The translations under genes were made by a program, and so were the position numbers. This document shows, in pieces, positions 13,150-35,465 of a stretch of 35,651 bases of DNA (position 1 is the first letter of the stretch; each line of letters begins with the position of its first letter). This DNA is from Candidatus Hydrogenedentota bacterium (GTDB lineage: Bacteria > Hydrogenedentota > Hydrogenedentia > Hydrogenedentales > SLHB01). The stretch lies in contig PWNM01000038.1 in assembly GCA_003557825.1 (NCBI GenBank), forward strand, positions 1-35,651. The letters are read 5' to 3'. The notes under the pieces are model-generated. The model worked only from the letters and a program-made list of their open reading frames with translations. It made no database searches and was not told where the DNA came from.

Positions 13150-13608
13150 TCAGATTCCCATGCAAACCTCTGTGAAAAGTTTACGCAAGAAAAATCCGCA
13201 GAATTTTTTTCTTAAAAACCACGCATCAAGAGTGTAAAAGAGTTCCGCGGTCGTCCACAGGCTGTTACGATGAATCGTAAATCCATTCCGAGTTGGGAGG
13301 CGACCGAAGAGCCTGTCGGCTGCTTTCCCGATGGCCGGGACCGTCGCCGCGACGCGGATGAGATTGCCGTTGGCCGTGGCCACAAAGTTAACGCCGCCGG
13401 CCCAGATTTCGCAGGGCGTGCGGCCGGGCGCGACGGTCAGGATGACGGCGGTGCCACTGGTGCGCGAGGTGACGCTGGATTCCCCGATGCTTTCCTCCGG
13501 ATCGGACGGGTCAAGGGAACCCACGAGGTTCCCGCCCGCCCTAATGAGCGTGTCCCTCCATCCTGTCCCTCTATCCAACGAAGCCTGCGGATCATTATAC
13601 TCTATCAC
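13150..13608 (-). pseudogene. Possible degenerate duplicate of the GH10 protein C-terminal module
   Basis: The ORF abuts the GH10 stop codon; VIEYNDPQASLD...GGN and AATVPAIGKAADRLFGRL resemble the GH10 terminus FEYSTDLASWS...GGN / ITVAPSAAPDGRLFGRIRG. Confidence 0.3.
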
Positions 13609-16600
13609 GGCTGTCCCCTGATACGACCAAAGAGGCGACCGTCCGGCGCGGCGGACGGCGCGACTGTTATCGTCACTGTTTGCAGACCTTCAGCCGGCGT
13701 GTCCGCTTCGATGCTGACGTTGCCGCCGGAGCTTGCCGGTATGCTCTGACTGCTCCAACTCGCAAGGTCGGTGCTGTATTCAAACGTCAGGTCAACGGCC
13801 TCCACCGCATCCGTACGTCGAATGAAGCGGAACAACAACTCACCGTTGGCATTGAACTCAGCCTCAGGCATATTGGCGCTGAAGGGCACGGTCGGGTCGC
13901 CATCGAAAACGAATTCAAACAGATTAGGGAAGCCATCGCCGTCCGGATCCGCGTTGAAAGCGCCATCGCCGTCACTAAGCTCAAATTGTCCGAGCCATGC
14001 AAGATAATTGGGATCATAGGCTTCACCTTCGACCACCAATTGCAAGCCACCCTCCTGGAAGAATGCCGTGCGCCCATCCGGCAGGGTAACCGGGCTACGA
14101 AAATCCAAACCTTCAACCGTACCCGCAATCAGCGTGTAGGAGCCGTTTTCGACATGGCTCCAATCGGTCGCGCCGCCATCAGCACTTACCAGATCGTTAA
14201 CACTGAAGCCGCTGGAGAGGGTTACCGTGCCCGACACCGTCAATGTGGCATCCATGTCAAACACATATTTTGCCCCCTCGGCGAGCCTCACTCCCCCGGC
14301 CAGTGAACCGTTGCCGCCGATACGGGCACCGCTTGCCACAGTCACCATGCTGGTGCTGCCTATGCTGCCATCGACAATCAGTCCACCCGCATTGACATGC
14401 GTTGCGCCCGAATACGTATTCACCCCGGACAGCGTTAATTGCCCTCCCCCTCCAATCATGAGGGATTGAGCGCCCGACGAGCCTCCGGTAATCGGTGTTG
14501 AAATCGCCGCGCTGACGCCGGGCGCAACGTTGATCGAACGATCCGGGCTGTCGATAAGCGTAAGCGTATTGCTGCCAGACCTCGTGAGCACATATCCGGA
14601 AGATTCGAACAAGAGCGAGCGCGCCGAAACATTCTCGGTGATGGTCACCGTGCCCGCTGTGCCGCTAAACATGGCATTGGCCTCGTTGCGGTTGCGCCAA
14701 CTGATCCTCGGGTATCCACTGCCGATATCCCAATTGGCGGTGCTGAGATTCCAGCTTGCCGATCCGCCGTCACTTGCCGCGTCGCCGGTTCCACCGGCGT
14801 CGGATCCGTCCCAGAAAAAGTTTCTGGCCAGGGCATTGGCGACACCGAAATAGGCGGGTTTGCGTTGATGATTGTGATCGAACAACAGTGCATGGCCGGA
14901 ACCGGGACGATGATTGGGAATCCAGGAATTCGTATCGCTATACCCCCAAATGAAGACCGCCGGAGCATTCGGCTGCGCGAGTGCCGTCGCAACGATTCGC
15001 TCGTATTGCACGCCCTGCTCTGCCAATTGCTGGGCGGTTACATTGCCTTCGCTGTTTGGGCTGTCCGTATTCAAGGACAGATCCAATTCCGTTATGATAC
15101 ATTCCAAGCCAAGACCTGCCAGAAAAGTGAATGTATCGCGAAGGCGGTTTGCATCCGTGGTACTGAAGCCTCCCGAACCGTTTTGATTAGGGCCGACAAA
15201 GTGACCTTGCAGACCTACACCTGTGACCGGCACACCGCGGGAAACCATCCCGCTTATCATGTTTCTCATGCGGGTGTTCTTGTAACCGTAAAGTCCTCCG
15301 GAAAGCTCAATATTATAGTCATTATACACCAACCGCACATCCGGATCAGCCTCGCGGGCGGCAATGAACAATGCATCAATAAACGCTTGTTTGCTCTGCA
15401 CACCATCATACCAGGTGCCGGATCGGAAGGTGCCGCCAATTAAAGGAATATCCGAGATCGCCTCGTTGATCACATCCCACTCGTAGATCTCCGGAGCATG
15501 CTCGCGGCAATAGGTCAAAAGTGCCTTGATGTATGAAGTGGCAAATGCGGTGATCTGGGAGGAACTCCAGCCGGGAGCCTCGGAATCAAGCCAGTCTGGT
15601 ATTTGCTCATGCCAGATCAAAGCATGGCCGCGGATTTTGCTCACGCCGTTGGAACGCGCGATTTGAACCATCCTGTCGATCTCAAACGTATTGATGTCGG
15701 ATACCTGAACATTAAATGGATCCGCCGGGCGATTTCGCAGCATAGACCGCATCTTATGATTATTCTCTGCCACATAGCCGTTAAACTCAGCTGCCAGAAT
15801 ATCCCGCTTCTGCTGTGGAATCTGTGGCGATCCCGAGGTAAAATTGGAGAGCATTTGCCAACTCACGGCCGTGCCAATAATAACGCCACGGTCCTCGGCG
15901 AGATCGCGCAGAGAAGTCGCATAGGCGGAAGGCCCGGGAACGACAGTGATTCCATCTGATTGTAAGTCGCGGACACCAGTGCTACTGCTCCAACCGGCGA
16001 CAAACTGAAAGCGATCTACTGGAAGAACAACACTATTAAAATAGCTTGCTGTGACCGACAAATTCTCATCATTGTTGACAGTCACATATATAGCTGTCTC
16101 GTCCCATTCTATTACAACATCAAGAAGTTCGCCCGGCTGCAAAGCCGAAAAATTGATAGCCTGAAATTGATCCCACTCCGTGCCGTGGTACACACGGAGT
16201 TGTGTAGAACTCTCAAGGCGAAGACGGGTCAATTCCGCAGGAGTTGCCCAATTATAAAGGGAGAAGTAGCCCTGGTTGCCGGTAGAGCCAAAATCTGAAC
16301 CGAGCGTAAAAGATACGGATCCAACACTTTGAGGAGCAAAAACCGGTGATCTCAAGTTGGCAGTTCCGCCGTTGTCATTTGTCAACTGCATTCCGGCATC
16401 GGAGAAGGTCAGCGTATTCGCAGGGGCAGCGTTATCCAGAATAATACCCCAGCCTTCGGCTGCGAGTCCTTCAATAGTCGTCCCGGCGTTAAACTGTGTG
16501 CTTAAAATTGCCCCGGGCATTTCCCATTCGCCGTCGTCGTCGTCGAAGTCATTGACGACGATTCCCGTTGAGGCCACGGCTCGGGTCCCGGAACTTGTGG

Positions 16601-17171
16601 TCCAACCCGCGGTGAACTCAAAGCCATCAACCGACAAACCGGCGTTCCGGTAGCCCACGGTGGTCAGCAAATCGCCGTCCAGGTAGATGTCGACAAACTC
16701 ACCATCCCATTCCAAAGTGATGTCGAGGAGTTGCCCGCCCTGTGCAAGGTTGAAGTTGGGGACCACAAGGTCCAACTCCACGTCACCGACCACACGAAGG
16801 GTCGTGTTGTTTTGCTGCAGAATAAGGCGAATGACCTCATTATTGGCACCCCAACCGGCCACAAGCGCAAACCGGCCATGCGTGCCCGTCAAGCTGGCAT
16901 CGGTACCCAGGGTTAACTGAGCTGTGCCTGCGGCAACACTCGTGAATTCAGGCGAACGCAGGTAATAGGCTCCGCCTCCGGTGTTTTCCAACTTCATACC
17001 GGCGCCGGAGAAGGTGAGGCTGTTATCCGCGAGGGCATCGGCGCTGACCGTCCAACCTTCGCCCTGTAGACCGGCCACAGTTGTGTCGGCAGTAAACTGT
17101 TTGCTTAAAACGGCCCCGGACATCAGAAGCGGGCAAAGTAGCAGTAAGGCAATTGTCCTGATTGTTTTCAT
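13605..17171 (-). CDS. Multidomain secreted GH10 endo-xylanase: two N-terminal PEP-CTERM-protein-like domains, GH10, autotransporter-associated beta-strand repeat, TSP3-like C-terminus
   Basis: Start MKTIRTIALLLLCPLLMSGAV at 17171; GH10 motifs GHALIWHEQIPDWL, WDVINEAISD and CIITELDLSL; GGGQLTLSGVNTYSGATHVNAGGLIVDGS repeat; DPDGDGFPNLFEFVFDGDP. Confidence 0.9.
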   Translation of the reverse strand: MKTIRTIALLLLCPLLMSGAVLSKQFTADTTVAGLQGEGWTVSADALADNSLTFSGAGMKLENTGGGAYYLRSPEFTSVAAGTAQLTLGTDASLTGTHGRFALVAGWGANNEVIRLILQQNNTTLRVVGDVELDLVVPNFNLAQGGQLLDITLEWDGEFVDIYLDGDLLTTVGYRNAGLSVDGFEFTAGWTTSSGTRAVASTGIVVNDFDDDDGEWEMPGAILSTQFNAGTTIEGLAAEGWGIILDNAAPANTLTFSDAGMQLTNDNGGTANLRSPVFAPQSVGSVSFTLGSDFGSTGNQGYFSLYNWATPAELTRLRLESSTQLRVYHGTEWDQFQAINFSALQPGELLDVVIEWDETAIYVTVNNDENLSVTASYFNSVVLPVDRFQFVAGWSSSTGVRDLQSDGITVVPGPSAYATSLRDLAEDRGVIIGTAVSWQMLSNFTSGSPQIPQQKRDILAAEFNGYVAENNHKMRSMLRNRPADPFNVQVSDINTFEIDRMVQIARSNGVSKIRGHALIWHEQIPDWLDSEAPGWSSSQITAFATSYIKALLTYCREHAPEIYEWDVINEAISDIPLIGGTFRSGTWYDGVQSKQAFIDALFIAAREADPDVRLVYNDYNIELSGGLYGYKNTRMRNMISGMVSRGVPVTGVGLQGHFVGPNQNGSGGFSTTDANRLRDTFTFLAGLGLECIITELDLSLNTDSPNSEGNVTAQQLAEQGVQYERIVATALAQPNAPAVFIWGYSDTNSWIPNHRPGSGHALLFDHNHQRKPAYFGVANALARNFFWDGSDAGGTGDAASDGGSASWNLSTANWDIGSGYPRISWRNRNEANAMFSGTAGTVTITENVSARSLLFESSGYVLTRSGSNTLTLIDSPDRSINVAPGVSAAISTPITGGSSGAQSLMIGGGGQLTLSGVNTYSGATHVNAGGLIVDGSIGSTSMVTVASGARIGGNGSLAGGVRLAEGAKYVFDMDATLTVSGTVTLSSGFSVNDLVSADGGATDWSHVENGSYTLIAGTVEGLDFRSPVTLPDGRTAFFQEGGLQLVVEGEAYDPNYLAWLGQFELSDGDGAFNADPDGDGFPNLFEFVFDGDPTVPFSANMPEAEFNANGELLFRFIRRTDAVEAVDLTFEYSTDLASWSSQSIPASSGGNVSIEADTPAEGLQTVTITVAPSAAPDGRLFGRIRGQP

Positions 17172-17212
17172 TTTTGAAAATGTTTGTTTTGTTGGGTATT
17201 GTTTACAGTATT

Positions 17213-17275
17213 TCAGGCGGTCACGGCTAAAATTGCGGTGAATTCTGAAAGGCATGGATGGCCGGAACGCTCGTT
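17213..17275 (-). pseudogene. Possible relic of a 2-hydroxyacid dehydrogenase C-terminus
   Basis: Minus strand encodes NERSGHPCLSEFTAILAVTA*, compared with YERDGYPTVTESTADWAVMA* at the end of 29855-30889 (10/20 identical by eye, same stop position). Confidence 0.45.
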
Positions 17276-17366
17276 GGTGAAGGGTGAGGTAAAGGGCATG
17301 ATTTGATTCCGAACTCCATGAGAACATACGTGAAAATTTTCCTCAAGAAAATTCCGCAGGCGCAAA

Positions 17367-19543: not shown

Positions 19544-20248
19544 TTATTGCGTCTCTCTCAACCGGGCGGCGGTGCGTTCCAGGGCGTTGCAGAGGGAAGG
19601 GAGGTTCACCGCACCGCTCTTGGGGGTGACGATGGAGGCGGTCAAAACCCCCAGGATGCGGTCGTCGCTGTCCTGGAGAAGCAGGCCAAGATCGACGACG
19701 CCAACAACATGCTGGCTCTGGCGGTGAAAGGGCTTTTTTGCGCGAACCGCTTCGCGCAGTCCCTTGGGGAGGCGAAGGTCCGCCGGCGTAGGCAGGGCAC
19801 CGCCGGCGGCGAGGATTGCGCCGGAGAGCGTGTCCTTGGGGGCAAACCGGGCTCCCGGTTGCAGGCTCAGGCGGACCAATCCTTCGCCGGGTATGTCGAG
19901 GATCATCAGGGCCGCATCGCCGTCGGGGATGCTGAGGTGGATCGATTGTCCGGTGTTCCGGGCAAACTCCAACAATGCGGGCTCCGCCGCACGGCGCAGG
20001 CGCAGTTGCGGGGGGTGGTGATTGGCAACGGCGAAGAGCCTTCCGGAGAGAATATACGCGCCGGAGGAGAGGTGCCGCAAATAACCCGTCTCCACGAGGC
20101 AGGCCAAGGGACGCTGCACCTCGGGAACGCCCAGGCTCATGCCCTGTGCAATGTGCGTGAGAGTGGCGGGTTCCTCCCGTCCGGCCATCCATTCGAGAAT
20201 TTTTAAACCACGGGCGAGTGCGGGGACGTGGGAGACGGATTTCTTCAT
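19544..20248 (-). CDS. IclR-family transcriptional regulator
   Basis: HVPALARGLKILEWMAGREEPATLTHIAQGM ... LVETGYLRHLSSGAYILSGRLFAVA, IclR HTH and effector domain. Confidence 0.88.
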   Translation of the reverse strand: MKKSVSHVPALARGLKILEWMAGREEPATLTHIAQGMSLGVPEVQRPLACLVETGYLRHLSSGAYILSGRLFAVANHHPPQLRLRRAAEPALLEFARNTGQSIHLSIPDGDAALMILDIPGEGLVRLSLQPGARFAPKDTLSGAILAAGGALPTPADLRLPKGLREAVRAKKPFHRQSQHVVGVVDLGLLLQDSDDRILGVLTASIVTPKSGAVNLPSLCNALERTAARLRETQ

Positions 20249-20257
20249 CGATAAATT

Positions 20258-20270
20258 TTATTGCCAATAA
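20258..20270. promoter_or_regulatory. Candidate operator between iclR-like gene and the divergent operon
   Basis: Perfect inverted repeat TTATTG-C-CAATAA in the 48-bp divergent intergenic region. Confidence 0.4.
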
Positions 20271-20296
20271 TAATCCGATCTGCAAGCTCTAAAAAC

Positions 20297-20962
20297 ATGA
20301 CCCGAATATCCGACCCCTCAAATTACGGCGACCGCCTGGAGGCCTGCTACTCCGGTGCGGTTTATGACACTCTGCGGTCCATGGGATTGCCGGACCAAAT
20401 CCTGCCGCGCACGATCCGACCGCTCGATGCGACCCGTCCGCTGGCGGGGCCGATTTTTACCTTCAGCGGTTATGCCGATCATACGGTGGACGGGCACACG
20501 ACGCTGCTGGAGTGGACGCGCATGCTGTCGAAGGCGCCCTCGGGCTCGGTCGTGGTTTGCCAGCCGAATGACGATACGCTGGCGCACATGGGTGAGTTGA
20601 GCGCGGAGACCTTTGTTTACAAGGGGGTGCGCGGCTATTTGTGTGACGGCGGCTGCCGCGACTCCGTGAGGATTTTGGAAACGGGGCTGCGGGTGTGGTC
20701 GCGCTACTACACGCCGCGAGACGTCGTGGGCCGCTGGGTGCCGGACCGTTTTGGCGAGCCGGTGGTGATTGGCGGAGTGACGATTCGCACGGGTGATTAC
20801 CTGATGGCGGACCGGGATGGAGCGCTCGTCATCCCGCAAGAGCATATTCAGGAAGTCACGGAAAAGGTGGAGGAAGTCTTGCGAACGGAGAACAAGGTGC
20901 GCACGGCGATTTTGGAGGGCGTCGATCCGGTCGAGGCTTATTTGAAATACCGCAAGTTTTAA
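20297..20962 (+). CDS. RraA-family protein (HMG-aldolase/oxaloacetate decarboxylase-like)
   Basis: GVRGYLCDGGCRDSVRI and GEPVVIGGVTIRTGDYLMADRDGALVIPQ are RraA-family motifs. Confidence 0.85.
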   Translation: MTRISDPSNYGDRLEACYSGAVYDTLRSMGLPDQILPRTIRPLDATRPLAGPIFTFSGYADHTVDGHTTLLEWTRMLSKAPSGSVVVCQPNDDTLAHMGELSAETFVYKGVRGYLCDGGCRDSVRILETGLRVWSRYYTPRDVVGRWVPDRFGEPVVIGGVTIRTGDYLMADRDGALVIPQEHIQEVTEKVEEVLRTENKVRTAILEGVDPVEAYLKYRKF

Positions 20963-20966
20963 GGTC

Positions 20967-21275
20967 ATGGCTTCCGACTGTATCCAGCTTTCACCAACGG
21001 ACAACATTGCTGTTCTGACCCGCAGCGTCGGGGCGGAAGACGCCGTGCGGATTGGGGATGCGACGTTTTCCTTTCCGCAAGCGCTTGGCCTTGGGCACAA
21101 GATTGCCTGCCGTGCGATCCAGCCGGGCGAGAAAATCCTGAAATACGGTGCCCCCATTGGTTCCGCGACTCAGGCGATTCAAGTGGGCGAGCACGTCCAC
21201 CTTCATAACATGAAAAGCGACTACCTGCCCACCTATACGCTGGAGGCGGGCAGGGAATTCCATGCAACGCCATGA
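20967..21275 (+). CDS. UxaA-family dehydratase, small (SAF domain) subunit
   Basis: 102 aa; DNIAVLTRSV ... LGHKIACRAIQPGEKILKYGAPIGSATQAIQVGEHVHLHNMKS. Confidence 0.88.
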   Translation: MASDCIQLSPTDNIAVLTRSVGAEDAVRIGDATFSFPQALGLGHKIACRAIQPGEKILKYGAPIGSATQAIQVGEHVHLHNMKSDYLPTYTLEAGREFHATP

Positions 21276-22480
21276 ATACTTTAATTGAGCGAAGCTGGCT
21301 CCGCGCCGACGGGCGTAAGGGAATCCGCAATACACTGGTGGTGGCCTACCTGGTAGAGTGCGCGCACCATGTCGCCCGTGAGATTCAGATGCCCTACCGT
21401 GAGAGCGGGGCCCACCTCATTGGCTTCAGCGGGTGTTATCCCAACGATTATTCCTTCCGGATGATGCGGTCGCTCTGCACCCACCCAAACGTCGGGGGTG
21501 TGTTGCTCTTGTCCCTTGGGTGCGAGGGCTTCAACCGCAACGGTCTTCGCGATGCCATCCGGGCGAGCGGGCGTCCGTGCGAGTTGCTGGTCATTCAAAA
21601 CAGTGGCGGCACCCGCTCGACCATTGCCTCGGGGCGGGAGCGGGCGGAAGCCATCCTTACCGAAATGGCGTCGCAACCGCGTGGTCCCATGCTCACCTCC
21701 GAGTTGTGCGTCGGCACCGTTTGCGGCGGCAGCGACGGAACCAGCGGGATTACCGCCAACCCCGGTATCGGGCGGGCCTTTGACCAACTGGTGAAGGCGG
21801 GGGCGACTTGTATTTTTGAGGAAACCGGCGAACTCATCGGCTGCGAGCAAATCATGGCAGCACGTGCGGCAACACCCGCACTGGCGGCCGAACTCACCGC
21901 CTCGGTGGAGAAGGCGGCGCGATATTACACAACGATGGGACACGGCAGTTTTGCGCCGGGGAATGCGGACGGCGGGTTGACGACGCAGGAGGAGAAGAGC
22001 ATGGGCGCGTATTCGAAAAGCGGCTCCTCCCCGATCAGTGGTCTGATCAAGCCGGGCGATGTGCCGCGCACGGGAGGGCTTTATTTGCTCGATGTCGTGC
22101 CCGACGGTGAGCCGCGCTTCGGGTTTCCCAATATCAACGACAACGCCGAGATCGCCGAGCTGATCGCCTGCGGCTCGCACCTCATTCTCTTTGCCACCGG
22201 TCGCGGCTCCGTTGTCGGCTCCGCCATTTCTCCGGTCATCAAGGTATGCGCCAATCCGGAGACCTATCGCAACCTCCCCGAGGATATGGACGTGGACGCC
22301 GGACGCATCCTTGAAGGGCGCGGCACGCTCGACGAAGTGGGCGCGGAAATCGTGCAAAGCATCGAGTCGACGGCGGCGGGTCACCCGACAGCCTCCGAGG
22401 CCCTCGGGCACCAGGAGTTTGTCCTCGGCTACAAATCCTTTTCACCCATCGGACCATCCTGTCATCCCACCTACCAATGA
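21272..22480 (+). CDS. UxaA-family dehydratase, large subunit (altronate/sugar-acid dehydratase-like)
   Basis: VAYLVECAHHVA, ELCVGTVCGGSDGTSGITANPGIG, EETGELIGCEQIM and IVQSIESTAAGHPTASEALGHQEFVLGYKSFSPIGPSC; ATGA overlap with the SAF subunit. Confidence 0.88.
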   Translation: MNTLIERSWLRADGRKGIRNTLVVAYLVECAHHVAREIQMPYRESGAHLIGFSGCYPNDYSFRMMRSLCTHPNVGGVLLLSLGCEGFNRNGLRDAIRASGRPCELLVIQNSGGTRSTIASGRERAEAILTEMASQPRGPMLTSELCVGTVCGGSDGTSGITANPGIGRAFDQLVKAGATCIFEETGELIGCEQIMAARAATPALAAELTASVEKAARYYTTMGHGSFAPGNADGGLTTQEEKSMGAYSKSGSSPISGLIKPGDVPRTGGLYLLDVVPDGEPRFGFPNINDNAEIAELIACGSHLILFATGRGSVVGSAISPVIKVCANPETYRNLPEDMDVDAGRILEGRGTLDEVGAEIVQSIESTAAGHPTASEALGHQEFVLGYKSFSPIGPSCHPTYQ

Positions 22481-23283
22481 ACCTGCAACTGGAAAACAAA
22501 ATCGTAATCGTCACCGGCGGTGCCAAAGGTATCGGAGAATCCATCACACGCACCTTTGCCCGCGAAGGCGCTGTCGTCTGCATCTTCGGGCGCAACCCGG
22601 AAGAGGCAAATCGCCTCGTCAAAGCCTGTGCCGCCGAAGGGCAACGGGTGGAGAGTTATCATGTCGAAATGACCGATGAGGCGCGCGTCCGCACCGCTGT
22701 TGCCGAAGTTTTGGAAAAGCACAGGCGCATCGATATAGTGGTGAACAATGCCGGAGGCAACGATGCAATCAGCCTGCGCAACACCCCTGCCGCCTTTCGC
22801 GACTCGCTCGAAAAGAACATCGTCCAGTGTTTTTCCCTCATTCACTACACCCTGGACGCCCTGATTGCCTCGCGGGGCAACATCGTAAACATCGGCTCGA
22901 AGTGCTCCGTGACGGGACAGGGTGGCACAAGTGGATACGCTGCGAGCAAGGGGGCGATGAATGCGCTTACCCGTGAATGGGCGCTCGACCTGGGACGCCA
23001 GGGCATCCGTGTAAACTGCGTGATCCCCGCCGAAGTCATCACCCCGCTTTACGAACGCTGGCTCGCCCAGGCGCCCGACCCCAAGGCTGCGCGTGAGCAG
23101 CTCGACCAAACCGTTCCCTTCGAGCGGCGGACGACAACGGCGCAGGAGATCGCCGATACGGTGGTCTTTGTCGCCTCGCCCTGTTCATCCCACACAACCG
23201 GGCAATTGTTATTTGTCGATGGCGGCTATGTGCATCTCGACCGCGCTTGCACCCAGCCCACCAGCCACCTGAAAAGCAGCTGA
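22477..23283 (+). CDS. Short-chain dehydrogenase/reductase (SDR)
   Basis: VTGGAKGIGESI, VVNNAGG and SGYAASKGAMNALTREWALDL motifs. Confidence 0.93.
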   Translation: MNLQLENKIVIVTGGAKGIGESITRTFAREGAVVCIFGRNPEEANRLVKACAAEGQRVESYHVEMTDEARVRTAVAEVLEKHRRIDIVVNNAGGNDAISLRNTPAAFRDSLEKNIVQCFSLIHYTLDALIASRGNIVNIGSKCSVTGQGGTSGYAASKGAMNALTREWALDLGRQGIRVNCVIPAEVITPLYERWLAQAPDPKAAREQLDQTVPFERRTTTAQEIADTVVFVASPCSSHTTGQLLFVDGGYVHLDRACTQPTSHLKSS

Positions 23284-23316: not shown

Positions 23317-24174
23317 ATGATTGACACCCACCAGCACCTCATCTCTCCGGACCGCTTCACCTACGCCTGGGCGGCGGATGTGCCACAACTTCAGGGCGCT
23401 TTTACCTTGGATACGTATCAGGAACTCGCGTGCGACGCGGGCATTGAGGGCAGCTTGTTTATGGAGGTGGACGTGGCTCCCGCTGAATCCGCCGGAGAGG
23501 CGCGTTTCTTCTGCGAACTCGCGATGGACCCGGTGAACCGCATCCTCGGGGTGATCGCAGGTGCGCGACCCGAGGCAGAAGCGGGTTTTGAGGAGCATCT
23601 CGATGCCATTACCCATCCCAAACTGAAGGGTATTCGCCGCGTCCTGCATACCCAGCCGGACACGCTTTCCACGACCGCGCACTTCCGCGCCAATCTCCGC
23701 ATTCTCGGGCAACGGGGTTTACCCTTTGATTTGTGCATGCGGCAGGATCAGCACGCCCGCGCGCTCGACCTCATCCGCGCCTGCCCCGGGACTCAATTCA
23801 TCCTCGATCATTGCGGTGTCCCCGAGGTTGCGGCCAACGACGCTCCGGCGGGTGAGGGCTTTCAAGCGTGGCGGCAATCCATCCTCCGCCTCGGCGGTGA
23901 GTCCAACCTCTGCGGCAAACTCTCCGGCCTGACCACCTATGCGGCAGATTCCCAGCGAAACGCCAAAGCCTTGCAGCCCTACATCGACACCATGCTGGAG
24001 GCATTCGGCCCAACCCGCCTCGTCTGGGGCGGCGACTGGCCGGTCGTCAATCTCGGCAGCGGGCTTCCGCGCTGGTGCGAACTCACTCGCGAACTCATTG
24101 CCCCCCTGACTCCCGAAGAGCAGCAGATGATCCTTTCCGCCAACGCCCGCCGCATTTACGCTTTACACACATGA
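23317..24174 (+). CDS. Amidohydrolase-2 family, L-fuconolactonase-like
   Basis: MIDTHQHL, LKGIRRVLHTQPD, FILDHCGVPEV and RLVWGGDWPVVNLG. Confidence 0.85.
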   Translation: MIDTHQHLISPDRFTYAWAADVPQLQGAFTLDTYQELACDAGIEGSLFMEVDVAPAESAGEARFFCELAMDPVNRILGVIAGARPEAEAGFEEHLDAITHPKLKGIRRVLHTQPDTLSTTAHFRANLRILGQRGLPFDLCMRQDQHARALDLIRACPGTQFILDHCGVPEVAANDAPAGEGFQAWRQSILRLGGESNLCGKLSGLTTYAADSQRNAKALQPYIDTMLEAFGPTRLVWGGDWPVVNLGSGLPRWCELTRELIAPLTPEEQQMILSANARRIYALHT

Positions 24175-25181
24175 ACGCACACCTATCCGGCATCTTTGTT
24201 CCCAACATCGTTCCCTACGATGCACAGGGGCGTATTCACAAAGACGAACTGCGGCGCATCATCCGCTGGCTGGGCGACAAGGGCGTCACCGGATTTTATC
24301 CCAACGGCAGTATGGGCGAGTTTATCCGCCTGAGTTACGAAGAGCGCAAGCAAGTCGTCAAAATCGTCAGCGAGGAGGCCGACGGCCGTCCCGTCCTTGC
24401 CGGTGCGGCCGAGCCCAACGTCGATCTGGTCCTCGATATGTGCGCCCACTGTGCCGACCTCGGCTGCCGTGCGGTTTCCATCACCGGTCCTTACTACTAC
24501 AAGCTAACGCAGGAGAGCATTGAGGCGTATTTCCGCGAACTTGCCGCCAAGTCGCCTATCGACATTGTCATTTACAACATTCCCGCCTTTGCTAACGAGA
24601 TCAGTATTCCCGTGCTCAAGCGCCTCGCCCTCGATTGTCCCCGCATCGTTGGAACCAAAGACACCTCCCGCGACATGCCCCGCTACTTGCGGGTCTTGCA
24701 TGAAATCAAATCCCAGCGCCCGGACTTTTCCGTCCTCATCGGCTGGGAGGAATTACTCTGCGACGCCCTCTTCATGGGCGGAGACGGCGGCACACTCTCC
24801 AGTGCCGGAGTCGTCCCGGAAGTGATCATGAAGATTTACCATGCCGCCCGCAAGGGTGACTGGGAGAGTGCGAAACACGGGCAGTTTAAGCTCCTCGATC
24901 TGTTCGCCCTCATGGTCAATGCCCCCAACTTCCCCGAAGGCTTTCGCGCCGGTTATGAACTGCGCGGCTTCCATCCCGGAAAGGCCCGCTTCCCGCTCTC
25001 CGATTCGGAGCGCGAGCAAATGACCAGCATTCGTTCCCGCATCGCCTGCGTCCTCGCCGAATGCGGTTTCTCTGAAGCCGCCCACGCCTGTGTTTCCAAG
25101 CATCCCCGCCCCGATGCGATGCGTGCGGAGGTCGAGGAAATCGTGCGCCGGGTCATGGCCTCGCTGCAAACCCCGCGCTAA
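24171..25181 (+). CDS. DHDPS/NAL-family pyruvate aldolase with C-terminal amphipathic helix (possible BMC encapsulation peptide)
   Basis: GVTGFYPNGSMGEFIRLSYEER, YNIPAFAN and VGTKDTSRD (Schiff-base Lys); tail SKHPRPDAMRAEVEEIVRRVMASLQTPR extends past the usual family end. Confidence 0.88.
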   Translation: MNAHLSGIFVPNIVPYDAQGRIHKDELRRIIRWLGDKGVTGFYPNGSMGEFIRLSYEERKQVVKIVSEEADGRPVLAGAAEPNVDLVLDMCAHCADLGCRAVSITGPYYYKLTQESIEAYFRELAAKSPIDIVIYNIPAFANEISIPVLKRLALDCPRIVGTKDTSRDMPRYLRVLHEIKSQRPDFSVLIGWEELLCDALFMGGDGGTLSSAGVVPEVIMKIYHAARKGDWESAKHGQFKLLDLFALMVNAPNFPEGFRAGYELRGFHPGKARFPLSDSEREQMTSIRSRIACVLAECGFSEAAHACVSKHPRPDAMRAEVEEIVRRVMASLQTPR

Positions 25182-25184
25182 CCC

Positions 25185-25817
25185 ATGAATTCCTGTTTCG
25201 CCGGCCTTGAAACCGCGTTCATTAGCGTGACCTCTCTGGTCGCCGACTGCATGGCCAAAGCCGCCGACATCCGTATCCTCGGGTTCGAGCCAACCGGTAT
25301 TGAGACCATTCTTATCCGCATCGCAGCCGATCGTCCCGACTCCCTCCGGGCGGCCCTCGACGCCGGTCGTGCCCGCGCCATCGAGCTGGGCATACCGGAG
25401 CCCTCCGAGGTGCTCCTCGCCCGTCCCGATCCCGCGCTCTTCCGCCTCAACGACAATCCCAACACCATCAACGCTATCTACGGCGGACGCGAGGAAATGC
25501 GCCCTGATGACAATCCGAATCCACCCACCAAAAATCCACTTATGAAAAACAAAGCCATCGGTATACTCGAAACCCAGGGACTCACCGCCGTCCTTGAAGC
25601 GACCGACGCAATGCTCAAATCGGCCGACGTCCAGCTCGTCGGCAAAGAAAAGATCGGTGCCGCCTACGTCGCCATCACCATCTCCGGCAACGTCGCCGCC
25701 GTAAAAGCCGCAATCGAAGCCGGTGCGCAAGCGGTCGGCTCGCTCGGCAAGCTCATCGCCGCCCACGTCATCGCCCGTCCACACGAAGAGTTGACACGGA
25801 TCCTGCCAAAATTGTGA
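25185..25817 (+). CDS. Tandem BMC-domain shell protein (BMC-T-like)
   Basis: The C-terminal half MKNKAIGILETQGLTAVLEATDAMLKSADVQLVGKEKIGAAYVAITISGNVAAVKAAIEAGAQ is a PduA-like BMC domain. The N-terminal half (FAGLETAFISVTSLVADCMAKAADIRILGFEPTGIETILIRIAA...SLRAALDAG) is a divergent BMC domain. Confidence 0.88.
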   Translation: MNSCFAGLETAFISVTSLVADCMAKAADIRILGFEPTGIETILIRIAADRPDSLRAALDAGRARAIELGIPEPSEVLLARPDPALFRLNDNPNTINAIYGGREEMRPDDNPNPPTKNPLMKNKAIGILETQGLTAVLEATDAMLKSADVQLVGKEKIGAAYVAITISGNVAAVKAAIEAGAQAVGSLGKLIAAHVIARPHEELTRILPKL

Positions 25818-26255: not shown

Positions 26256-26317
26256 GCTTGCTTGCAGCCCGGATCAGGGAGTTTGCAAATCAACTAATCC
26301 ATCAGGATTCATTCGGA

Positions 26318-28672
26318 ATGAAACAAAAGAAAAAAGCGAAACGCGGAGCAGCCAATACAGCCCCCGGCAAAAATAACCTCGTCATCTGGCACGACAACCC
26401 CGCCTCGGAATGGAACGAAGCCACCCCGGTCGGCAACAGCCGCCTCGGAGCCATGATCCACGGGAATGTCATCAGCGAGCGGATTCAACTCAACGAGAAC
26501 TCGCTCTGGTCCGGTGCGCCACAAGACGCCGACAACCCCGAGGCGCTCGGAAAACTCACGGAAATCCGTACCATGCTTTTCAACGGAAAATACCGCGAGG
26601 CAATGCAACTGGCCGAGACATACATGGTTTGTCGCGGCATCGGCTCGAACCGCGGACGCGGCGCGAAGGTGGCATTCGGCAGTTACGAAACACTCGGCGA
26701 TCTCAACCTCGTCTTCAGCCATCCGCATGACGCCGAAGTCATCGGCTACCGCCGCTCGCTCGAGCTGGACTCCGCCATCTCCACCGTCACCTATTCGATC
26801 AATGGCGTGAATTTCCGCAGGGAAACATTCGCCAGCGCGCCGGACAACGCCATCGTCATCCGCATCACCGCAGACGAACCCGAAGCACTTGATTTCCACG
26901 TTTCATTGAACCGCTGCGAAGCCTTCACAACCCTGCACGACGGCGATTCCCGCCTCCTCATGCATGGCCAACTCTGGAATGGCGAAGGCCCGCACGGCAT
27001 GAAATACGCCGCCCGCCTTGCCGTCAAAACCGGACAGGGAAACATCTCCCGCGAAGGTGAGGGGCTCCGCGTTTCCGGTGCCTCCGACGTCACATTACTC
27101 GTTACCGCCGCAACAGACTACCGCATGTCCCTGCCGGACTGGCGGGACGGCGACCCCATGGCAATCTCGCTCGAACACCTCGATGCCGCCGCCGCCAAGT
27201 GCCCGGACGCCATGCGCGAAGATCACATCGTGGACTACCGTTCCCTGTTCCGCCGCGTTTCGATTGACCTCGGAGAGAACCCGGATGTCGCCGACATGCC
27301 CACAGACAAAAGGATCATCGCAATGCGCGGGGGCGATACCGACCCAGGCTTGATCACGATGTTTTTCCAGTTTGGCCGCTACCTCCTTATCAGTTCCTCC
27401 CGCCCCGGCACTATGCCAGCCAACCTCCAGGGAATTTGGGCGGATACCGTCTCGCCGCCATGGAGCGCCGATTACCATGCCAACATCAACATCCAGATGA
27501 ATTACTGGCATGCCGAGATGGCCAACCTCCCGGAATGCGTCGAGCCGCTCACCCGATACATTGAATTCCTCTCCGGTCCGGGTGCGCGCACCGCGCACAT
27601 CCACTACGGCGCGCGGGGATGGACTGCCCACACGATCACCAACCCGTGGGGCTTCACATCGCCGGGCGAGCGTCCCAGCTGGGGCCTTTCGCCGTCCGCC
27701 GGCGCATGGCTCGCTCAGCACCTATGGGAACATTACGCGTTCTCGATGGATGAGGACTACCTCCTGCGCGTCCTCCCGGTGCTGCGGGCGTCCGCCGAGT
27801 TCGGCCTCGACTGGCTCGTCCAACACCCGGTCACCGGAAAACTCGTCGCCGGCCCGGCCACATCCCCCGAAAACACATTCATCACGGCGACCGGCGAGAA
27901 ATGCAGCCTCTGCATGGGCCCCGCCATGGAGCAGCAGATCGTCTGGGACAGCTTTGCCAACTACCTCGAGGCAACCCGCATCCTCGGCCTCAATGAACCA
28001 ACGGCCGAAGAAGTCAAGAACGCCATGCCCCGAATGCTCGGTCCGCAAATCGGCTCGGACGGGCGACTCATGGAATGGAGCGAGGAATTCAAGGAAGCCG
28101 AACCGGGCCACCGCCACATCTCTCACCTCTTCGCCCTCCACCCGGGTCGCCAGATGAGCCGCAGCGAAACACCGGACCTCGCCGAGGCCGCACGCCAGTC
28201 GATCCTCGGACGCCTCGCACACGGCGGAGGCCACACCGAATGGAGCCGCGCGTGGATCGTCTGCTTCTGGGCACGCTTGGGCGACGGCGCGAAAGCCGGC
28301 GAAAACATGGACGCGTTGATCACCCGATCTACCCTCCGGAATTTGTTCACCACTCATCCGCCATTCCAGATCGACGGCAATTTCGGCGGCGTCGCCGGAG
28401 TGTGTGAAATGCTCCTCCAAAGCCATGCCAACGAAATCGATCTCCTCCCCGCACTCTCACCCTCATGGACCAAAGGCTCCGTCACCGGCCTCCGCGCCCG
28501 CGGCGGTTACGAAGTCGATATCGAATGGGCCGACAACTCACTCGTCTCGGCAACCATCCGCAACCTCGGCGGCAAACCCGGGACCCTCGTGCGATATGGT
28601 GAAAAGACCAAAAATATCCACGTCCCGGATGGCGGCTCCGTGACCTTGGATGAAACTCTCGAAATAGAGTGA
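26318..28672 (+). CDS. GH95-family alpha-L-fucosidase (no obvious signal peptide)
   Basis: DNPASEWNEATPVGNSRLGAMIHGNVISERIQLNENSLWSGAPQDADNPEAL and PANLQGIWADTVSPPWSADYHANINIQMNYWHAEMANLPE are GH95 motifs. Confidence 0.93.
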   Translation: MKQKKKAKRGAANTAPGKNNLVIWHDNPASEWNEATPVGNSRLGAMIHGNVISERIQLNENSLWSGAPQDADNPEALGKLTEIRTMLFNGKYREAMQLAETYMVCRGIGSNRGRGAKVAFGSYETLGDLNLVFSHPHDAEVIGYRRSLELDSAISTVTYSINGVNFRRETFASAPDNAIVIRITADEPEALDFHVSLNRCEAFTTLHDGDSRLLMHGQLWNGEGPHGMKYAARLAVKTGQGNISREGEGLRVSGASDVTLLVTAATDYRMSLPDWRDGDPMAISLEHLDAAAAKCPDAMREDHIVDYRSLFRRVSIDLGENPDVADMPTDKRIIAMRGGDTDPGLITMFFQFGRYLLISSSRPGTMPANLQGIWADTVSPPWSADYHANINIQMNYWHAEMANLPECVEPLTRYIEFLSGPGARTAHIHYGARGWTAHTITNPWGFTSPGERPSWGLSPSAGAWLAQHLWEHYAFSMDEDYLLRVLPVLRASAEFGLDWLVQHPVTGKLVAGPATSPENTFITATGEKCSLCMGPAMEQQIVWDSFANYLEATRILGLNEPTAEEVKNAMPRMLGPQIGSDGRLMEWSEEFKEAEPGHRHISHLFALHPGRQMSRSETPDLAEAARQSILGRLAHGGGHTEWSRAWIVCFWARLGDGAKAGENMDALITRSTLRNLFTTHPPFQIDGNFGGVAGVCEMLLQSHANEIDLLPALSPSWTKGSVTGLRARGGYEVDIEWADNSLVSATIRNLGGKPGTLVRYGEKTKNIHVPDGGSVTLDETLEIE

Positions 28673-32096: not shown

Positions 32097-35000
32097 TCAG
32101 AAAGAGAGGCCGACACTGAAACGGATATTGAGGGGCGAGTAGCTCACCTGGGACCGCCGCTTGATCTCCTCGCCGTTCGCACCGGTGTAGGTCACGACGC
32201 GCTCGGCATGGCGTTGATCGGTGAGGTTGTTGATGTTGAGACGGAAGTCCCAGCGAAAGCGGTCGGTATCAAGGCGGTACATGAAAGCAAGGTCCGTGCG
32301 GAGCCGGTCAGGCGTGCGCGGCGTCGGGTATGGATTGATCTCGAGCGAACGCCCGCCGAGGGGGACCGAAGTCTGCGCGGATCCGGTGTAGATGAAGCCG
32401 AGTGCCACCCCGAGATTCTCGAGGGGGCCTTCACGGAAGGTGTACCTGCTCCAGAAAGACGCGTTGTGCTGGGGCGCGAAGTAGAGACTGACACCGGTGA
32501 GACCACTGTTCAGGGTCGTTGGATCCGTCGGATCGTCAAAGTTTTCGCGGCCGAGAAAATACACCCAAATATCGTATTCGGTGCCGAGATTCTCACCGGT
32601 CGTCGGGTGCAGAACCGGGACGAAGCGGAAGGGTGAGGTGGTCTTTCGCTCCACATACGAGTAGTTGACGATAAGCTGGAGACTTTGTCTTGGCGTGAGA
32701 ACGACATTGAAGTCCACCCCCTTCGATTCATCGGCAAAGGTGACAAAGTTTCCGGAGTGGATGGTGTTCCCCGCGTTATTCGCACCGTCAAAATCGGTCC
32801 GGTTCCAATTGATCGGTTTATCGGGGATCTGCCCGACGTTAAAGTTTTCGGGCCACGGGAACGGATCGTTGAATGCTTCTTCCATCACGGAGCGCAGGCC
32901 GGTACTGTCCAGGAGTTCGTAATTCACGAGAACATAAGTCTCACCGGTCGAGGCATTCCTTTCATAGTCGAGTATCCCGGGGTGCGTCTCGACCGTTATG
33001 GGGAGGTTGTCCGGACCACGTATAATCCGGCCATCTTCATCCCGCAGAAAGCCGGACTCCAGGACAATCGCATTGCCGAAGTCGTCTGCTCTTGCATTGC
33101 CCGCGTCATCGAGGAAATAGCGTTCGTGTACCCAGTAGGCGCGCCGATGGTCGGGATCGAAAGCCCGCTCCGGGCGGTTGCGCATGGTTGGTTCAATGAG
33201 AAACTCCGGCCCGTTGAGCCAAGCCCGCGGGGCAGGTGCATAGAGATAATCCCATGTTACGTTATCCCGCTCGATTTTCCAGAGGGCGATGGAGCCGGAG
33301 ATCATCCGCTCCATCAACTCGAACTTCAGACCCACTTCCTGGCTCCGCGTGCTCTCCGCCGGGATGGGGTTGTACAGACCATCCCGCTGGCCCGTATTCG
33401 GAGACACCCCTTCGCCCCGCTGGTAGTAGGCCGAAAGAAATTCGTTGAGGCGGTAATTAACACCGAAGGAGAAACTCGTCTCCTTCTCGGGAGGATCGAA
33501 TTGGTGAAACTGCGACCGCATCTCATCAAAGCCGAGGAGCTGGTTGGGGTTGCCAAAAGCATCAAAGGCCGGGTTGCGCAGGTCTACGCCGATTCCGAAG
33601 TCCTCCGCCGGAATGGCCCAGGACACGCGACGGTAGACCGCCGAAGAGACGTTGTAGCGGTCGTGCCGAGCCCCCGCGATGAGGTTCAGCCGGTCGCGGA
33701 AAAAGCTTCCGAAGTAATTCAGGTAATGACCGGTATACCACACTTTGATGCGGTTGAAATCCATCCCCGGTTCCGGGTAGGGTTCACCCCCGTAACGGAA
33801 GGGCGTCATGTCCGTGACCGCCCGGAACTGCAGGGGCTGCTCGCTCAAATCGGGTCGCCTCCAGTCAATCCGCGCGAAGCTCGGCGTGCCGCTCGCGTAG
33901 TCGACGGTGTCCTGGATGTCGTTGCGGCCCAGAAGGAAGGAGTGGCGTGCCTCGCTGTTGAAGAAAAAGGGTGTTTCCACGACATAGGAAAGCTCGGTCC
34001 GGACCTGGAGGTTTTTTCCCGTGGTCGGCCGTTTTTCCCAGAAGTAGTAGAGTAGCCGGAGATCATCGGCGGGGTCGAACTGCGTGTCGGCGTCCGCCCG
34101 GAAATTGGCGATCGGATACGGGGGCTCGCCCGGTTCCGGTTGCGGAAAGACATCCACCAGGGTCGGATCAATTCTCCCGTCGCGCACGCCTTCGCGGATC
34201 AAAATGGCCGCGTTGCGGTTAGTCACGGTGCCTCCCCGCAATATGCGTTCTTCAATGTTCTGTTTGCCGAAAAGAACGCCCGTTTTCAGAATCAGGTTGT
34301 GGTCGCTGAAGGGTTTGAGTTCGGAGTCGATGAGCTGGCTCCACTCGTCCTTGTGATAATACGTGTCGGGCCCCGTAAGGCGGAAGGAGCGAGGCAGGTT
34401 GCCGTAGTGGGGATCCCTGACCCAATCCACGTATTCACCGAAGTCGTTGCGGAATGCCGTGTTTGTCGTGTCCGCCTCGTTGAAGGAGTCGCGAAAACCG
34501 TAGGAGCCGGTGCCGTGATTGCGTTCCCACGCCGCCTGGGTCTCCGTGAATATCCTCAACATCCGCCCAAACTGCTTCTCAAACTGCAGGCCCACATACT
34601 GGCGTTCCGAACTCTGGAAATCCATCCAACTGTCCGAACTCTGCGCCGAGGCAAAAACCCGGTAGTTCAGACCCGGTGCCATCGTCGGGCCCGTCACATC
34701 CAACTCGCCGCGGACAAAATTCCGCGAACCCGCCATGACCCGCATATTGGCCCGGAACTCATCCAGCGGGCGTTTCGGGATGATGTTCGCAATGCCGGAC
34801 AAGACGCTCAGACCATACAGGAGCGACTGCGGCCCGCGCACGACTTCGATTCGCTGTGTGTTCACCGTGTCCGTGATGCCGCCGAGGTTTACGCCGGCAC
34901 TCGGGATGAACCCACCGATGCGGAAACCATCCCGTAACTGGAAGGGCGTGTTGAAGCCGCGGATTACAATCGCATTGTTGTTGCCGCCCACACCGGCCTG

Positions 35001-35465
35001 GGCGGAAGGCGAGCGATCACGCGAACCCACCGTGTTCACCCCAAGTGCCGTGCTCACCTCGGACTGCGTCGTGAAGACGCCCGCGACGTAGTCAAGCGCC
35101 CCCTTGAAATCCAGCGCCCCCGTGTCTTCGAGAAACTCCGCCGTGAGCACGTCCACCGTCATCGGAACGTCTCGGATCGCGACCGACAAGCGCGTGCCCG
35201 AGACCGAATTCGCTGCGAGGTAACCCATGTCGCCTTCAACGGAGACGATAAACGGCGACAATTCATAAAAATCAATGTCCTCCTGCCCGACCGCCGGAAC
35301 GAACGCCAACACCAAACCAAGCATCGCCGGAGCGCACATACGGCCGCTCACTGGAAGCGCCGGAGCATCGCCCCCCGCCCGCTGCGGCAGACGCTTTAAA
35401 GAAATAGATTTCAAGAGAGTCATGGGGCTCATCAGTTCAACGTTGACGTTGCGAAAAATTACCAT
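32097..35465 (-). CDS. TonB-dependent receptor (Opitutae-type)
   Basis: YELSPFIVSVEGDMGYLAANSVSGTRL plug start; IVIRGFNTPFQLRDGFR; RIEVVRGPQSLLYG; C-terminal RFSVGLSF. Confidence 0.92.
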   Translation of the reverse strand: MVIFRNVNVELMSPMTLLKSISLKRLPQRAGGDAPALPVSGRMCAPAMLGLVLAFVPAVGQEDIDFYELSPFIVSVEGDMGYLAANSVSGTRLSVAIRDVPMTVDVLTAEFLEDTGALDFKGALDYVAGVFTTQSEVSTALGVNTVGSRDRSPSAQAGVGGNNNAIVIRGFNTPFQLRDGFRIGGFIPSAGVNLGGITDTVNTQRIEVVRGPQSLLYGLSVLSGIANIIPKRPLDEFRANMRVMAGSRNFVRGELDVTGPTMAPGLNYRVFASAQSSDSWMDFQSSERQYVGLQFEKQFGRMLRIFTETQAAWERNHGTGSYGFRDSFNEADTTNTAFRNDFGEYVDWVRDPHYGNLPRSFRLTGPDTYYHKDEWSQLIDSELKPFSDHNLILKTGVLFGKQNIEERILRGGTVTNRNAAILIREGVRDGRIDPTLVDVFPQPEPGEPPYPIANFRADADTQFDPADDLRLLYYFWEKRPTTGKNLQVRTELSYVVETPFFFNSEARHSFLLGRNDIQDTVDYASGTPSFARIDWRRPDLSEQPLQFRAVTDMTPFRYGGEPYPEPGMDFNRIKVWYTGHYLNYFGSFFRDRLNLIAGARHDRYNVSSAVYRRVSWAIPAEDFGIGVDLRNPAFDAFGNPNQLLGFDEMRSQFHQFDPPEKETSFSFGVNYRLNEFLSAYYQRGEGVSPNTGQRDGLYNPIPAESTRSQEVGLKFELMERMISGSIALWKIERDNVTWDYLYAPAPRAWLNGPEFLIEPTMRNRPERAFDPDHRRAYWVHERYFLDDAGNARADDFGNAIVLESGFLRDEDGRIIRGPDNLPITVETHPGILDYERNASTGETYVLVNYELLDSTGLRSVMEEAFNDPFPWPENFNVGQIPDKPINWNRTDFDGANNAGNTIHSGNFVTFADESKGVDFNVVLTPRQSLQLIVNYSYVERKTTSPFRFVPVLHPTTGENLGTEYDIWVYFLGRENFDDPTDPTTLNSGLTGVSLYFAPQHNASFWSRYTFREGPLENLGVALGFIYTGSAQTSVPLGGRSLEINPYPTPRTPDRLRTDLAFMYRLDTDRFRWDFRLNINNLTDQRHAERVVTYTGANGEEIKRRSQVSYSPLNIRFSVGLSF

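Follow-up and report, generated by a model that had tools for sequence, protein, structure and literature searches.

The closest described system is the PVM microcompartment (Erbilgin 2014, Axen 2014, Sutter 2021), which handles fucose and rhamnose (PMC4207490) and sequesters lactaldehyde (PMC4207490, PMC8857213). A class II sugar-phosphate aldolase (PF00596) is the signature enzyme known for it, and BMC-T is cited as missing from the founding PVM metabolosome (PMC4207490). A second precedent is given by the EUT-module satellites of HO/SPU microcompartments, in which an aldehyde-producing enzyme and a BMC-T likewise extend the substrates of the main compartment (PMC8217296). The third is the fuc operon of Campylobacter and Veillonella (Watanabe 2020, via PMC11199699 and PMC12566272). 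The C. jejuni fucose locus includes dapA, a split uxaA, an amidohydrolase gene and an IclR gene, and the FucR regulator has been described (PMC12566272). This non-phosphorylating route (FucA/B/C/H) ends with the cleavage by FucH of L-2-keto-3-deoxyfuconate (L-KDF) into pyruvate and L-lactaldehyde (PMC11199699).

We analysed a stretch of 35,651 nucleotides from a Candidatus Hydrogenedentota bacterium, hereafter the window. It contains an operon whose first gene encodes an RraA-like protein (20261–20962, plus strand, PF03737), divergent from the gene of an IclR-family regulator (19544–20248, minus strand, PF09339/PF01614), the family of FucR in C. jejuni. On the plus strand follow the small N-terminal part of a UxaA-type dehydratase (20967–21275, matching TIGR03248 residues 3–80) and the large part of a UxaA-type sugar-acid dehydratase (21272–22480, PF20629 and PF04295), which we predict to be a fuconate dehydratase. 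Next on this strand are an SDR identified as L-fucose dehydrogenase (22477–23283; NCBIfam FucosDh equivalog, 346 bits for a cut-off of 300) and an amidohydrolase (23317–24174, PF04909), probably an L-fucono-1,5-lactonase, its match to NCBIfam FuconLaconase (E 1e-30) lying below the cut-off. After the aldolase and shell protein genes described below, a GH95 glycoside hydrolase of the alpha-L-fucosidase family is encoded at 26258–28672 (plus strand, PF22124, E 1e-167). The region is bordered by genes for a GH10 glycoside hydrolase and a TonB-dependent receptor (13605–17327 and 32097–35465, both on the minus strand), which mark a polysaccharide-degradation neighbourhood. The operon shares dapA, split uxaA, SDR, amidohydrolase and IclR genes, as well as the aldol-cleavage route, with the Campylobacter/Veillonella operon; no BMC gene is described there, and FucH is compared here by its description. 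The neighbours of the aldolase indicate non-phosphorylating L-fucose breakdown. Thus, lactaldehyde, the intermediate of the PVM, would be expected among the products of the aldolase.

The aldolase gene (24171–25181, plus strand) encodes a DHDPS/NAL-family class I aldolase of 336 residues (PF00701, E 6e-52). We took the ATG at 24171 as its start; a longer frame from a GTG at 24075 overlaps the upstream gene. In an alignment of 42 relatives, the GSxGE motif (G46, S47, G49 and E50) was invariant, together with Y135 and K163, and the AlphaFold model, which used this alignment, had a pLDDT of 92.5 and YagE (2v8z) as its top fold match. The DHDPS fold with its Schiff-base lysine and tyrosine is therefore present. 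Watanabe is reported to have placed FucH in this DHDPS family too. A lysine-pathway DapA (4-hydroxy-tetrahydrodipicolinate synthase) was considered and rejected, as the protein scored 131.6 bits against an NCBIfam dapA cut-off of 206 and its gene sits in a sugar-acid operon. From the operon context, the substrate would be L-KDF and the enzyme a predicted L-KDF aldolase. We regard it as most plausibly a second producer of lactaldehyde in the PVM, because FucH-type cleavage yields lactaldehyde, which the PVM sequesters. It is a pyruvate-type class I aldolase of a non-phosphorylating route, in contrast to the class II enzyme known from the PVM.

The initial annotation had noticed a C-terminal extension on this aldolase, and it is indeed there. 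The chain ends in SKHPRPDAMRAEVEEIVRRVMASLQTPR, and residues 304–336 read AHACVSKHPRPDAMRAEVEEIVRRVMASLQTPR, whereas the Pfam DHDPS match stops at residue 289. In 29 DapA paralogues from related genomes, the protein terminates at a ...ELTxxEKxxxxxxLxxxGLI helix, the counterpart of SDSEREQMTSIRSRIACVLAECGFSE, with nothing beyond; since these paralogues stop at the preceding helix, the tail of the aldolase is an extension. A low-conservation linker (residues 308–313, 25092–25109; pLDDT about 65) leads from the TIM barrel to a predicted helix (residues 314–333, 25110–25169; pLDDT about 89), and its length differs among the relatives. Mean entropy in the 42-sequence alignment was 0.95 bits for the barrel, 2.85 for the linker (residues 306–316) and 1.89 for the helix core. 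Tail occupancy was 98–100% among the 42 relatives. V321, I324, V325, V328, M329 and L332 were aliphatic in 93–100% of the aligned tails; the intervening positions hardly ever were. Just before the linker, Cys307 (25089–25091) was invariant in all 42 relatives. The helix had been put forward as amphipathic. Its hydrophobic spacing is conserved, but the hydrophobic moment taken by itself (0.429) is ordinary with respect to shuffled sequences (mean 0.331, p 0.27). We dropped the moment as evidence for a tag; what supports one is the conserved residue pattern.

To compare the tail with encapsulation peptides, we used a 12-position matrix trained only on the tags of the PVM aldehyde dehydrogenase (AldDH), phosphotransacylase (PTAC) and class II aldolase. 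These tags came from 18 stretches in genomes of the same set, with families confirmed for one locus, and their cores were anchored with hand-written patterns. The AldDH tag (MDEKLIRSVVEDVLSRLQ in the sister MAG, G068) and the PTAC tag (HRAEIEHLVRRALYARLG type) are N-terminal, and that of the class II aldolase (DEALVQRITDMIMEKL type) is C-terminal. The tail of the window aldolase scored 21.1 bits, with VEEIVRRVMASL (25131–25166, plus strand) as its best 12-mer. When the same 40 residues were shuffled 100,000 times, this value was never reached, and among 1,790 C-termini in the loci examined only 8 did, all belonging to this aldolase family or to the PVM class II aldolase. Likewise, 46 of 48 family tails outscored the best of the 29 untagged paralogues (5.2 bits), the medians being 15.8 bits for the family and −6.0 bits for the paralogues. 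As had been stated, no such tail was evident in the other enzymes of the window operon, where the best protein end scored 6.0 bits.

The sole sequence match to the tail in the PDB was the N-terminal tag of EutC (DQKQIEEIVRSVMASM), at an E value of 0.8 that is weak alone. What we take to be the letters of the PduP tag gave no match when searched against the PDB. The same string is present in PMC5405515. In the PduP tag, incorporation is reported to depend on E7, I10 and L14 (PMC11157265), and R11 makes a salt bridge (PMC12339742). By eye, E7, I10, R11 and L14 align with E322, V325, R326 and M329. Among the 42 relatives, position 322 was E or D in 34 (81%), V325 was kept in 41 (98%), R326 was found in 25 (60%), and position 329 was aliphatic in 98%. 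The peptides of EutC, PduP and PduD thus share with the aldolase tag a 12-residue core, its hydrophobic spacing, and an acidic residue and an arginine one helical turn apart. The EutC and PduP tags are N-terminal, whereas that of the aldolase is C-terminal, like the tag of the PVM class II aldolase. Metabolosome tags are recognized by a terminal amphipathic helix of 15–20 residues, joined to the enzyme through a flexible linker of low conservation, and by a conserved hydrophobic face with an acidic/Arg pair as in PduP, and the aldolase tail has both. The earlier proposal of a BMC encapsulation-peptide pattern is supported. On sequence grounds, the tail is probably a genuine C-terminal encapsulation peptide, from which we infer encapsulation itself and predict a luminal location of the aldolase. 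Because its tail matches microcompartment tags, the aldolase is a probable plug-in cargo of the PVM compartment.

The shell gene (25185–25817, plus strand) starts 3 nt past the aldolase stop. The adjacency given by the initial annotation was thus correct, but a whole shell is not encoded here: the gene specifies a single tandem-BMC (BMC-T) protein of 210 residues, with PF00936 matched twice (G000), predicted to form a pseudohexamer tile. Its model (pLDDT 90.8) has two unpermuted BMC domains and fits best a designed tandem BMC-H fusion (6ner, TM 0.75); natural BMC-T proteins (PduT, HO-5812) matched far worse, with TM of about 0.4. These matches to a predicted model hint at a domain order different from that of natural BMC-T. 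The C-terminal domain keeps the ARPH edge motif, and reads KSAD in the window where the family consensus is KAAN. PMC8217296 presents KAAN and (P/A)RPH as facet-interface motifs. The tandem BMC could therefore tile into a facet, and we infer that it would do so in the PVM shell.

A scan of a genome collection with the shell protein gave 80 loci (L028–L107); most are from Verrucomicrobiota and Planctomycetota, and Ignavibacteriae and Omnitrophota contributed one record each. The aldolase immediately adjoins the shell gene in about 40 loci, and the tail is present in all of them except L038, which adjoins the tandem BMC yet has no tag. Many planctomycete records (L078–L107) carry a tandem BMC of the same kind (39–45% identical) with no such aldolase adjacent; where planctomycete loci lack DapA, no tagged partner turned up consistently next to the tandem BMC. 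The vertex protein BMC-P was found in 43 of the 46 genomes with the tandem BMC, nearly always in three copies and together with BMC-H. Among 390 sampled Verrucomicrobiota genomes, 65 have BMC-P, and all seven tagged aldolases in this sample fall in such genomes (Fisher p 2.7e-6, or 1.6e-5 without the search centre). The tail was not a common property of homologues in BMC-less genomes: none of the 29 paralogues was tagged, and the family members in BMC-less genomes (L163, L165 and L166) were all untagged. Only one of the four untagged family members, L164, sits in a BMC-P genome, that of a PVM carrier. We make no claim that the tag was lost in evolution along with the BMC; in the tree, L163 and L164 are nested among tagged members, yet their branches are long and their operon is of a different type. 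Some genomes depart from the general pattern: one (G086) has BMC-H and no BMC-P, another (G109) has tagged aldolase and tandem BMC but neither BMC-H nor BMC-P, and a third (G495) has tagged aldolase and PVM shell but no tandem BMC. Because the last combines tag and PVM without the tandem BMC, the tag follows the PVM and not the neighbouring shell gene.

In the window's own assembly, which is 80% complete, the tandem BMC is the sole BMC gene and BMC-P is absent. This first suggested an orphan shell protein without a compartment, a view we rejected given the frequency of BMC-P and BMC-H in genomes with this tandem BMC. The sister MAG is 100% identical over the shared contig (L028). Two of its short contigs, L138 and L139, carry genes for the PVM shell, AldDH and aldolase, and L138 is absent from the window's assembly. 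Short contigs are often lost in binning. We read the lack of PVM genes in the window's assembly as incompleteness, which we cannot prove. A 2.7 kb contig of the sister MAG (L047) encodes a further pair of aldolase and tandem BMC, with identities of 80% and 57%. In relatives, the PVM main locus encodes a PF00596 aldolase, AldDH, PTAC and a lactate/malate dehydrogenase (L141, Pfam), and most of the 18 PVM stretches yielded homologues of AldDH, aldolase and PTAC. A Phycisphaeraceae locus (L077) has AldDH and the class II aldolase of the PVM and, 4 kb downstream of the latter and in the same orientation, the window-type aldolase with its tandem BMC. The window locus is most likely a satellite of the PVM (fucose/rhamnose) compartment, the main genes of which would be located elsewhere in the genome. 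The likeness to the PVM extends to the taxa, the BMC-P triplet, the predicted lactaldehyde intermediate and the occurrence of tagged AldDH, PTAC and aldolase in the same genomes as window-type modules. Other tag-like N-termini were seen: IQRITQEVIKIL on a 286-residue protein without Pfam match inside the Phycisphaeraceae PVM locus (2672–3532), and, near the pair in L041, MNRDKISQIVRRALKESG on a medium-chain alcohol dehydrogenase (2670–3932, plus strand, Pfam) and MNRDQISQIVRQVLKDTG on a second gene (18726, minus strand). Given this alcohol dehydrogenase, NAD-recycling enzymes with such tags may form part of the module.

The tail and its conservation, its likeness to PVM tags, the genomic association with the PVM and the family assignments were computed. 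Beside them, we propose with good though not full confidence that an encapsulation peptide targets a DHDPS-family L-KDF aldolase into the PVM lumen, the tandem BMC being an added facet tile. Fucose dehydrogenase, lactonase and UxaA-type dehydratase would form L-KDF in the cytosol, and the tagged aldolase, working within the compartment, would split it into pyruvate and L-lactaldehyde. The PVM AldDH and PTAC, which bear the same style of tag, would then take the lactaldehyde. The adjacent tandem BMC would have joined the PVM shell along with the pathway and perhaps serve as a sugar-acid port. A wider version, which we entertain without quite favouring it, makes aldolase and tandem BMC an entry module for a dual-input PVM, fed with lactaldehyde by class II phosphorylating and class I non-phosphorylating routes, with the tandem BMC as a dedicated port that admits the 2-keto-3-deoxy acid and perhaps lets pyruvate out. 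The port, likened to the EUT-module satellites, is the weakest step.

The tag could instead serve an independent assembly made of tandem BMC only (sheet, tube or scaffold). The usual proximity of the two genes and the solitary BMC gene of the window assembly and of G109 fit this idea, but it is improbable given the prevalence of BMC-P, the genome with tag and PVM shell alone, the Phycisphaeraceae locus that ties the module to a PVM locus, and the resemblance of the tag to those of PVM core enzymes. We give even less credit to a shell-independent role of the tail as an oligomerization or condensation helix of the aldolase. Metabolosome tags do drive cargo condensation themselves (PMC12339742), and the unexceptional hydrophobic moment would suit such a role, yet neither the 29 paralogues nor the family members in BMC-less genomes have the tail, which accompanies BMC-P across genomes, matches PVM tags position by position, and is attached through a flexible variable linker instead of continuing the barrel. 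Less easily dismissed, though still unlikely, is an encapsulated aldolase acting on another 2-keto-3-deoxy acid, of the L-rhamnonate series or derived from L-galactose or D-arabinose. In some relatives, the aldolase has as neighbour an MR/MLE enolase-family dehydratase (L041) or the L-rhamnose transporter RhaT (L043), which suggests that the module also serves rhamnose, and the PVM handles both sugars (PMC4207490). However, the window SDR exceeds the curated L-fucose dehydrogenase cut-off, and the GH95 gene comes after. Since KDF and KDR would both yield lactaldehyde, a rhamnonate substrate would leave the mechanism unchanged.

Our preferred reading, a tagged L-KDF aldolase plugged into the PVM, departs from the founding PVM in bringing a tandem-BMC gene, and from the EUT-module satellites (PMC8217296) in enzyme, BMC-T and host compartment. 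Encapsulation peptides, satellite loci, the PVM and KDF aldolases have all been described before; the papers searched contained no account of them in this combination. Nor was any link there between PF00701 or a 2-keto-3-deoxy acid aldolase and a BMC, the supplementary tables of PMC8217296 lying outside this search, so that a prior PVM-satellite listing is possible. If our reading is true, a catabolic microcompartment can admit another upstream pathway, of different chemistry but leading to the same toxic aldehyde, by means of one tagged enzyme and a single additional shell tile. A shell protein conserved across Verrucomicrobiota and Planctomycetota would also gain a role, and the result would be relevant to the handling of lactaldehyde by these groups, which are important degraders of algal polysaccharide rich in fucose.
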